Assembly (NCBI RefSeq): GCF_028692895.1
Contig: NZ_JAQUWN010000019.1
Coordinates: 1 to 58,633 of the forward strand
Length of the DNA stretch: 58,633 bases
Origin: Pseudodesulfovibrio sp.
GTDB taxonomy: Bacteria > Desulfobacterota > Desulfovibrionia > Desulfovibrionales > Desulfovibrionaceae
Direction: 5' to 3'
The position numbers and the translations under genes were made by a program. Numbering within the stretch: position 1 is the first letter of the stretch; every line of letters begins with the position of its first letter. Below, piece by piece: positions 22,734 through 24,545 of this stretch. Below the pieces are notes generated by a model that saw only the letters and a program-made list of their open reading frames with translations, made no database searches and was not told the DNA's origin.

Positions 22734-23042
22734 ATGGCGACCGGCCAGATCATCGAGCGAATCGACCACGACCTCGAACCGCTGATGCCGCGGTTCTTCG
22801 ACAATTCCCGGCAGGACGTCCGGACCATGCGCGACGCCCTGGCGGGCGGCGACATGGAGTCCCTGGCCCGGCTGGGGCATACGGCCAAGGGGACCGGCTA
22901 CGGCTACGGCATGCGCACCATGGGCGACATCGGCGCGGAGCTGGAGGCGGCGGCCAAGGTCGCCGACGCGGCCGGGTGCCTGGACGCCATCGAGCGCATG
23001 GACCGCTACCTGGACACCGTGGTCGTCGAGTTCCGCAACTGA
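22734..23042 (+). CDS. Histidine phosphotransfer (Hpt) domain protein
   Basis: The 102-residue four-helix protein is a single Hpt domain. The phospho-accepting H49 lies in LGHTAKGTGYGYG, the HxxKG(T/S) signature. It would shuttle phosphate between a hybrid kinase receiver and another regulator. No kinase is adjacent; the nearest hybrid kinase in the window is at 47.8 kb. It is monocistronic, with GGGGGAAG before the ATG. Confidence 0.87.
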   Translation: MATGQIIERIDHDLEPLMPRFFDNSRQDVRTMRDALAGGDMESLARLGHTAKGTGYGYGMRTMGDIGAELEAAAKVADAAGCLDAIERMDRYLDTVVVEFRN

Positions 23043-23124: not shown

Positions 23125-23916
23125 CTAGAGCAGCTCCATGGCCTGCTCCACACTCCAGTTCTCGTGCACGACCTTGTTCAGCGCGGCCACGATCTTGGCC
23201 GGGTTTTCGTGCTGGAAGACGTTGCGGCCCACCGAAAGGCCGGAGCCGCCCGCCTGGATGGAGTCGTAGACCATCTGGACCAGGTCGCGGTCGCTGTCCA
23301 TCTTGGGCCCGCCGGCGATGACCACGGGCACGCAGCACCCCTCCACCACGCGGGAGAAGGACTCCGGGTCGCCGGTGTAGTTGACCTTGACGATGTCCGC
23401 GCCGAGCTCCACGCCCACCCGGGCGCAGTGGGCCACCACCGTGGGGTCGTACTCGTTGTCGATCTTGGGCCCGCGCGCGTACATCATGGCCAGCACCGGC
23501 ATACCCCATTCATTGGCCTCGGAGCAGAGCGCGCCGAGGTCGGACAGCATGCGGCCCTCGGTCTCGTCGCCCAGGTTGATGTGCACGGAGACCGCGTCGG
23601 CCCCGAGCTTGAGGGCGTCCGTGACCGAGCCCACCAGGGTCTTGGCGTTGGGGAACGGGGAGAGCGAGGTGGAGCCGGAGAGGTGGATTATCAGGCCGAT
23701 GTCCTTGCCGCCCGCGCGGTGGGAGCAGCGGGGGATGCCCTTGTGCATGAGCACGGCGTTGGCCCCGCCGTCGGCCACCTGGTTGACGGCCTGGCGCAGG
23801 TCCACAAGGCCGTAGATGGGCCCGACGGTGACCCCGTGGTCCATGGGGACGACGATGGTCCGGCCGTCGTTGCGGTTCATGATGCGTTCCATCCGAATGG
23901 CTTTTCCCAGATGCAT
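23125..23916 (-). CDS. 2-amino-3,7-dideoxy-D-threo-hept-6-ulosonate synthase (AroA'), class I aldolase family
   Basis: A 263-residue TIM-barrel enzyme of the DeoC/FbaB-type aldolase family. The Schiff-base lysine is K177 in GADIVKVNY, with D26 in VVPMDHG and Y146 in MMYARGP. This subgroup makes ADH, the first intermediate of the 3-dehydroquinate route that bypasses DAHP synthase, known in methanogens and Desulfovibrio. Sequence alone cannot exclude a class I fructose-bisphosphate aldolase, but the Phe-rich leader and attenuator directly upstream favour the aromatic role. AAGGAG precedes the ATG at 23916; the longer frame upstream runs through the attenuator. The AroB' partner gene is not adjacent, unlike in some relatives. 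Confidence 0.85.
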
Positions 23917-23955
23917 GAGGTGCTCCTTTGGTGTTTCGACCGGCGGCGCGGCCCG

Positions 23956-23992
23956 AAAAAAAAGAGGCCGCGGACTTTGCCCGCGGCCTCTT
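23956..23992 (-). terminator. Attenuator terminator upstream of the AroA'-type gene
   Basis: AAGAGGCCGCGG (minus strand, 23992-23981) pairs with CCGCGGCCTCTT (23973-23962), a perfect 12-base-pair stem with a seven-base loop. An uninterrupted run of eight T's follows (23963-23956). It lies 40 bases before the gene start, between leader peptide and structural gene. Confidence 0.9.
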
Positions 23993-24039
23993 GGTTGATC
24001 GATTTTCTCCAAATACTAGCGCACACCAAGACCGCAGGC
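23956..24039 (-). promoter_or_regulatory. Phenylalanine transcription attenuator (antiterminator/terminator switch)
   Basis: Read on the minus strand, GCCTGCGGTCTTGGT (24025-24039, inside the leader peptide gene) can pair with ACCAAGAGGCCGCGGGC (23979-23995) through 15 pairs with one G-U and a two-base bulge. That helix uses up the 5' arm of the terminator at 23956-23992, so the two structures are mutually exclusive. A ribosome stalled on the Phe codons (24052-24072) leaves the first strand free, giving antitermination. One that reaches the stop codon (24016-24018) covers it, and the terminator forms. This is the layout of the enterobacterial phe and pheST attenuators. Confidence 0.85.
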
Positions 24040-24093
24040 GTTCCTGTCGTTAAAGCTAAAGAAGAAAAAGAAACGGGCGGAGTTGTGTGTCAT
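24016..24093 (-). CDS. Phenylalanine-rich leader peptide of the attenuator
   Basis: A 25-codon reading frame beginning ATG at 24093 and ending TAG at 24018-24016. Residues 8-14 are FFFFFSF, six Phe codons out of seven, using both TTC and TTT; the remainder is Phe-free. Composition, length and the position of the stop relative to the downstream helices match attenuator leader peptides such as PheL and PheM. The peptide itself need have no function; its translation senses charged tRNA-Phe. No clear ribosome site precedes the ATG, and a TTGACA box 31 bases upstream would place the transcript start at or next to the ATG. Confidence 0.85.
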   Translation of the reverse strand: MTHNSARFFFFFSFNDRNACGLGVR

Positions 24094-24124
24094 GACTATC
24101 GGGGTAGCGCAGATCGCCGCGCGC

Positions 24125-24130
24125 TGTCAA
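24125..24130 (-). promoter_or_regulatory. Possible -35 box for the AroA' leader transcript
   Basis: A perfect TTGACA on the minus strand lies between the RidA stop codon and the leader peptide. The best-spaced -10 candidates (CTACCC or TACCCC at 24101-24107) are poor, so the promoter call is tentative. Read-through from the RidA gene is the alternative source of the leader transcript. Confidence 0.35.
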
Positions 24131-24161: not shown

Positions 24162-24545
24162 TCAGTCGGCCACGGCCGTGCACTTCATTTCCACCAGGCC
24201 TCCCAGGGGCAGGCCCGCCACCTGGATGGCGGCGCGGGCGGGCTTGTGGGAGGTGAAGTATTCCGCGTAGATGGCGTTGAGGTCCGCAAAGCGGCCCATG
24301 TCCATGACAAAGACCTCCACGGCCAGGACCTTGTCCAGGGAGGAACCGGCGGCTTCCAAAATGGCTTTCAGGTTTTCCAGGGCCTGGCGGGTCTGGGCCT
24401 TGAAGCCTTCCGCCAGCTTGCCTTCGCCCGGGATGATGCCGAGCTGGCCGGAGACGAAGACCAGGCCGTTCGCCTTGGCGGCCTGGGAATAGGGACCGAC
24501 GGCGGCCGGGGCCATTTCCGTATGGATCAGATCGATGTTCGGCAT
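24162..24545 (-). CDS. ridA: RidA family reactive intermediate/imine deaminase
   Basis: The 127-residue protein covers the whole YjgF/YER057c/UK114 family. It has GPYSQA near residue 17, GLVFVSGQLGI at about 27, and the catalytic-site arginine in KPARAAIQVAGLPLGGLVEMKCTAV. Trimers hydrolyse reactive enamine/imine products of PLP enzymes such as threonine dehydratase, releasing ammonia and 2-keto acids. AAGGAGG lies just before the ATG. It follows the gate-domain membrane protein gene by 26 bases and lies upstream of the Phe-rich leader, so the three units may share transcripts. Confidence 0.93.
   Translation of the reverse strand: MPNIDLIHTEMAPAAVGPYSQAAKANGLVFVSGQLGIIPGEGKLAEGFKAQTRQALENLKAILEAAGSSLDKVLAVEVFVMDMGRFADLNAIYAEYFTSHKPARAAIQVAGLPLGGLVEMKCTAVAD

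Follow-up and report, generated by a model that had tools for sequence, protein, structure and literature searches.

The leader region of a solo ADH synthase gene

The window analysed here, the whole 58,633-nt stretch of contig NZ_JAQUWN010000019.1 from Pseudodesulfovibrio sp., carries on its minus strand a gene (23125–23916) for an ADH synthase (AroA'-type; 2-amino-3,7-dideoxy-D-threo-hept-6-ulosonate synthase), assigned with the TIGR01949 profile at 401 bits (cut-off 299) and with MJ0400 as its closest solved relative (333 bits). ADH synthase starts the DAHP-independent route to dehydroquinate, a pathway role that is established for the family, and by this family model the regulated gene contributes to making Phe, the amino acid predicted to be sensed at this site. 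Directly upstream of the leader region and on the same strand lies ridA (24162–24545), which ends about 70 nt before the leader ORF, and downstream of the ADH synthase gene lies a convergent Hpt gene (22734–23039, plus strand). Because this next gene is on the opposite strand, the ADH synthase gene is probably monocistronic. Across the sample described below, ridA was found within 700 nt upstream in 17 of 26 rows with a solo ADH synthase and a Phe leader (hereafter Phe-solo), and in none of the 142 other rows; as ADH carries an amine, an imine-hydrolase partner is conceivable.

Between ridA and the ADH synthase gene, a leader ORF of 25 codons, MTHNSARFFFFFSFNDRNACGLGVR, occupies 24016–24093 on the minus strand, with its ATG at 24093 and a TAG stop at 24018–24016. 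Residues 8–14 are encoded by TTC TTT TTC TTC TTT AGC TTT, giving Phe at positions 8–12 and 14 (24072–24058 and 24054–24052) and Ser at position 13. Codon by codon, this is the leader that the initial annotation had described, with six Phe among seven residues and the same stop. The C-terminal tail of the leader, NACGLGVR, is conserved. Upstream of the ATG, we predict a sigma-70-type promoter (24103–24130, minus strand) composed of TTGACA (24130–24125), a 16-nt spacer and GCTACC (24108–24103), the latter being a weak −10 box with two of six matches to TATAAT. As the promoter ends 9 nt before the ATG, the transcript probably has little or no 5' untranslated sequence ahead of the leader ORF, and translation would then start at or near its 5' end. 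We applied the same promoter search to 105 leaders, after removal of those labelled as none, those with an antiterminator p value above 0.05 and those too near a sequence edge. The best promoter-like pair ended 2–11 nt before the ATG in 73 of them, compared with 9% in shuffled sequence, and an exact TTGACA was present in 93; in the Phe-solo leaders tested, the pair was found at this distance in 22 of 23. Most leader ORFs therefore look leaderless.

Downstream of the first leader codons, the transcript can adopt competing pairings, all on the minus strand. Segment 1 (24069–24090) comprises the first codons themselves and pairs with 24045–24023 as a putative 1:2 protector, a feature that goes beyond the initial annotation. 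Segment 2 (24025–24039), encoded by the ACGLG residues of the conserved tail, is the 5' arm of the antiterminator, and segment 3 (23979–23995), its 3' arm, overlaps the 5' arm of an intrinsic terminator (3:4; 23956–23992). The terminator stem pairs 23992–23979 with 23975–23962 around a 3-nt loop and is followed by eight T at 23963–23956, two of which lie within the stem as folded; the eight T had been noted before, and the stem, previously given as 12 bp, measures 14 bp. The T tract ends 40 nt before the gene, and the apparent ribosome-binding site of the gene lies outside the hairpin. Computed duplex energies were −19.2 kcal/mol for 1:2, −28.6 kcal/mol for 2:3 and −27.4 kcal/mol for 3:4. In agreement with the earlier proposal of an antiterminator between 24025–24039 and 23979–23995, these arms do pair, and the 2:3 value is that of the best duplex around them.

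These structures exceeded expectation from composition. The element as a whole (23950–24093) folded with z = −3.6, a value that none of 200 dinucleotide shuffles equalled, while z reached −4.0 for the duplex of the antiterminator (200 shuffles, p 0.005) and −3.2 for the 1:2 pairing. Transcripts ending at 23979, 23975 or 23970 had the antiterminator as their minimum-energy fold, and transcript ends at 23966 or 23956 gave the terminator. At the transcript end 23979, masking the Phe codons with a ribosome kept the antiterminator and masking the stop codon removed it (mask sizes were assumed), in line with the geometry that the initial annotation had described. For the complete element, the lowest-energy fold was the terminator at every ribosome position tried, and the choice between the structures must therefore be kinetic. 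With no ribosome on the transcript, the antiterminator also prevailed at 23979, and the folding therefore lends weak support to a protector role of the 1:2 pairing. In the terminator stem, two base pairs changed on both sides, in four and three of 11 sequences, respectively.

Leader classes among ADH synthase paralogs

We compared 170 ADH synthase genes, drawn from two sources. A peptide-pattern search of GTDB species genomes yielded 55 loci, from which partial ones without a gene start were then dropped, and a family sample of 119 genomes contributed the loci of the 109 in which an ADH synthase gene was present. The tree comprises 168 proteins (two of the 170 genes were left out), the upstream count 168 genes (two with less than 300 nt upstream were left out), and the element and antiterminator survey all but one gene with less than 200 nt upstream. 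Leaders were labelled by composition rules, and some labels are borderline. An ORF with at least six aromatic residues in eight codons, together with a terminator, was found upstream of 110 of 168 genes. The rest of these loci, 1.90 million strand-bases of mostly coding sequence, served as background; there the same combination with an ATG-started ORF occurred twice, which corresponds to about 0.0004 per 420 nt; one of the two background matches was itself an ADH synthase leader read from an earlier ATG.

The window enzyme belongs to a solo clade of 22 members (SH-aLRT 99), including two pairs of rows with identical proteins. The initial annotation expected orthologous leaders to keep both the Phe run and the terminator. 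Phe-rich leaders were present in 22/22, so the first expectation held throughout; the terminator passed our script rule in 20/22, and the remaining two (L117 and L136) keep the hairpin with a weak U tract. A second solo clade (SH-aLRT 96) had Tyr leaders in 9/9. Among the 113 genes followed by a DHQS II gene, 79 have leaders with Trp plus Phe and/or Tyr, and 22 have no leader (archaea, tandem second copies and others). The labels clustered on the tree, requiring 30 changes compared with 83 in shuffles, and the amino-acid content of the leader largely follows the paralog clade of the enzyme. Four of the 26 Phe-solo rows fall outside the main clade (L135, L137, L142 and L146), and in one clade of five rows the labels Tyr, Phe, FY and none occur side by side; specificity has therefore shifted at least twice. 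For two archaeal rows, which have no terminator, the label (Tyr or FYW) comes solely from the ORF rule. No Trp-only class appeared among the leader labels of the 168 proteins.

The genome of the window encodes three ADH synthases. The operon copy (L059; G000:C112, minus strand) has a mixed Tyr/Phe/Trp leader, MIDTTPRSAYFTNFYFGYWYCRARGPERGAL, whose ORF ends 131 nt before the start of the ADH synthase gene, and the DHQS II of the alternative route was found in the operon on C112 with 571 bits. For the third copy (L060; G000:C14:1468, minus strand), the upstream region contained no ORF that was both rich in aromatic residues and accompanied by a plausible antiterminator, and a candidate leader of its own was rejected (antiterminator p 0.81). 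The combination of a Phe leader for the solo copy and a mixed one for the operon copy recurred in all seven genomes of the genus sample, including that of the window (window and L059, L071 and L090, L072 and L095, L073 and L092, L081 and L091, L094 and L093, L096 and L097). In several family genomes we also considered a third match as a third isozyme and rejected it, as it scored below the family cut-off in 8 of 10 genomes. The single PF00793 match in the genome of the window is a 270-aa frame directly behind a CTP-synthase-like ORF. Read by eye, this frame is a KDO8P synthase, and the PF00793 search thus recognised no type I DAHP synthase in the genome. With three ADH synthases, of which the operon copy has a mixed leader and the third copy none, the first step should be only partly under Phe control, and the initial suggestion that Phe-tRNA controls this step as a whole was too broad.

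To compare pairing across elements, we collapsed identical pairs, which reduced the set from 127 to 122, and excluded L117 and L136, which have no rule-passing terminator. The antiterminator was supported at p≤0.05 against shuffles in 21/22 Phe-solo, 68/75 mixed operon and 8/11 Tyr-solo elements. Loop gaps break the antiterminator columns of the alignment (A1), and an arm-swap test therefore replaced a formal covariation count. Cognate arms of Phe-solo elements paired at −30.5 kcal/mol compared with −27.2 kcal/mol for swapped arms (permutation p 0.0002), and cognate pairing was likewise the stronger in the mixed (p 0.0002) and Tyr-solo (p 0.0022) classes. The 1:2 pairing reached p≤0.05 in 15/22 Phe-solo, 27/75 mixed and 2/11 Tyr leaders, and is therefore supported mainly in the Phe class. 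No antiterminator was detected at p≤0.05 in eight Desulfobacterales leaders (L014, L019, L020, L021, L024, L026, L036 and L055), nor in six leaders of the family sample that have aromatic runs (L128, L143, L146, L150, L167 and L169). The eight Desulfobacterales leaders have strong Tyr/Phe(/Trp) runs, and their architecture is perhaps different.

Leaders at symporter and ligase genes

A covariance model (R1) built from 11 Phe leaders matched in 89 of the 119 family genomes and, judging by coordinates, many of the matches lie just before ADH synthase genes. When 21 matches were read singly, 13 preceded a symporter gene, four an ADH synthase gene, three a PaaK-like ligase gene and one none of these. 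The symporter is of the sodium:solute (SSS-family) type, PF00474 having been tested on the copy in the genome of the window. In that genome, a Phe leader, MHTNLNRFRCFFFGFRFFRSACGLGVCV, stands before an SSS-family symporter gene (L201; G000:C44:17318–17470). We found 31 symporter matches in 27 of 119 genomes and read 30 of the loci: 17 had a Phe leader and three a Tyr leader, and our rule assigned no leader to the other 10. Three genomes of one genus (G057, G079 and G108) each encode two symporter paralogs whose leaders differ, Phe for one and Tyr for the other (L216, L266, L267, L269, L277 and L278). A Phe leader ahead of a symporter suggests that the protein is an aromatic amino acid transporter.

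PaaK-like genes were present in 91 genomes. Of 30 loci that we read, three had a strong Phe leader, all in one genus (g7), and three other PaaK loci of that genus had no leader by rule. In the three positive loci (L209, L213 and L215), the Phe leader is followed by the gene for the PaaK-like phenylacetate-CoA ligase and then by an ACT-domain gene, an arrangement that hints at Phe being made from phenylacetate.

An attenuation model, its alternatives and its precedents

The anatomy of the site, its mutually exclusive pairings and the conservation of both are shown by the sequences. We are highly confident that the site acts as a Phe-responsive, ribosome-mediated transcription attenuator on the solo ADH synthase isozyme, and the analysis supports the initial annotation in this central reading. 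With an ample supply of charged Phe-tRNA, the ribosome would reach the stop codon at 24018 and cover segment 2, so that the terminator would form before the gene. When charged Phe-tRNA is scarce, the ribosome would stall on the Phe codons, segments 2 and 3 would pair, and RNA polymerase would read on. If the leader is untranslated, the 1:2 protector may favour termination. That the leader is translated, that ribosomes stall on it, that transcription terminates and that the switch responds to Phe supply are all predictions that we infer from the sequence.

Three other explanations have to be weighed. The hairpin could do no more than end the ridA transcript, and the Phe-rich ORF could have arisen by chance in T-rich sequence, as might be suspected from the position of ridA, on the same strand and some 70 nt before the ORF, and from its presence within 700 nt in 17/26 Phe-solo rows. 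However, the chance rate of such an arrangement is about 0.0004 per region, the complementarity of segments 2 and 3 exceeds that of shuffles, and leaders with antiterminators also occur where no ridA lies within reach (in 9/26 Phe-solo rows and in every operon or Tyr-solo row), which leaves this explanation highly improbable. We also consider it very unlikely that the leader senses general ribosome speed, or acts mainly as a small protein elsewhere, rather than serving as a Phe sensor. The conserved NACGLGVR tail would fit such a protein, and trans action of an attenuator peptide is described for peTrpL in excerpts of PMC7298713. Against this, conservation of the tail would be explained by its codons forming the antiterminator arm, the amino-acid content of the leader shifts with the paralog (Phe, Tyr or mixed), and symporter paralogs split between Phe and Tyr in three genomes of one genus.

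A real switch that works through translation or Rho instead of an intrinsic terminator would be in keeping with the weak U tract of two clade members and with the eight Desulfobacterales and six family-sample leaders that lack an antiterminator at p≤0.05. We give this option very little credence for the window, where a 14-bp stem with eight T lies 40 nt before the gene and the apparent ribosome-binding site of the gene is outside the hairpin. The preferred reading remains attenuation of transcription in response to Phe.

Phe leader attenuators are known from pheA and pheST of enterobacteria (Rfam RF01859, Phe_leader). The element resembles these in its short Phe-rich ORF, its alternative antiterminator and terminator, and an amino-acid biosynthesis target, but differs in gene, pathway and lineage and in its probably leaderless ORF. 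It also scores below the Rfam gathering threshold: no Rfam family matched in the window at gathering score, and RF01859 aligned to the element with 24 bits (E 0.055) compared with the required 55. In E. coli, Tyr, Phe and Trp each act on a different DAHP synthase isozyme (AroF, AroG and AroH, respectively). The predicted system would likewise give isozymes of the first committed step separate aromatic responses; unlike the E. coli isozymes, which rely on allostery and repressors, it would use tRNA-sensing attenuators on an unrelated enzyme, and without a Trp-only class. In the case of Sinorhizobium meliloti trpL, excerpts of PMC7298713 place the start of the leader ORF at the 5' end of the transcript. 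We predict a leader ORF at or near this end here too, although the S. meliloti attenuator differs in its target, trpE(G), in its Trp leader peptide and in belonging to Alphaproteobacteria.

The initial annotation knew of no attenuator on an AroA'-type gene, and one had in fact been listed as a prediction. In Table 7 of Song et al, 2005 (PMC1173090), a putative attenuator precedes the D. vulgaris supraoperon aroA'>aroB'>aroQ-pheA>aroF>tyrA>[trp], taken, according to the same excerpts, from Merino's website of predictions. It precedes the same enzyme family and matches the operon-copy elements described here. The excerpts of that paper do not contain the word "leader", give no leader peptide or amino-acid specificity, and do not mention the solo ADH synthase copies that we describe. 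Among other sources, PMC3766115 covers ten Desulfovibrionales genomes with Rfam motifs only, in an Rfam then without Phe according to its excerpts, and a term search of PMC545781, on metal-reducing deltaproteobacteria, found neither aromatic amino acids nor leader peptides mentioned. In excerpts of two RNA-seq papers (PMC4162548 and PMC5701242) aro genes move together, and PMC5701242 there calls the induction of aromatic genes in D. desulfuricans unexplained. In open-licence papers, we found none joining Desulfovibrio, leader peptide and attenuation, and in the open-licence PMC literature nothing on the regulation of the DAHP-independent aromatic pathway in sulfate reducers. The mechanism is known; for the enzyme, the lineage and the partition among paralogs, the open-licence literature searched offered no counterpart save for the predicted D. 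vulgaris attenuator.

The best reading is that the element is one of a set and that the isozymes are predicted to differ in the amino acid sensed. On balance, we lean towards the view that sulfate reducers have rebuilt an E. coli-like isozyme logic in attenuators (Phe, Tyr and pan-aromatic, mostly leaderless) that also includes symporters and a phenylacetate-CoA ligase. If this is true, the PaaK-like ligase of one genus would serve to make Phe from phenylacetate. Each ADH synthase paralog, and a sodium symporter that has no specific family name, would gain an amino-acid specificity that is directly testable, and paralogs of the same genome with differing run codons would offer a natural comparison.
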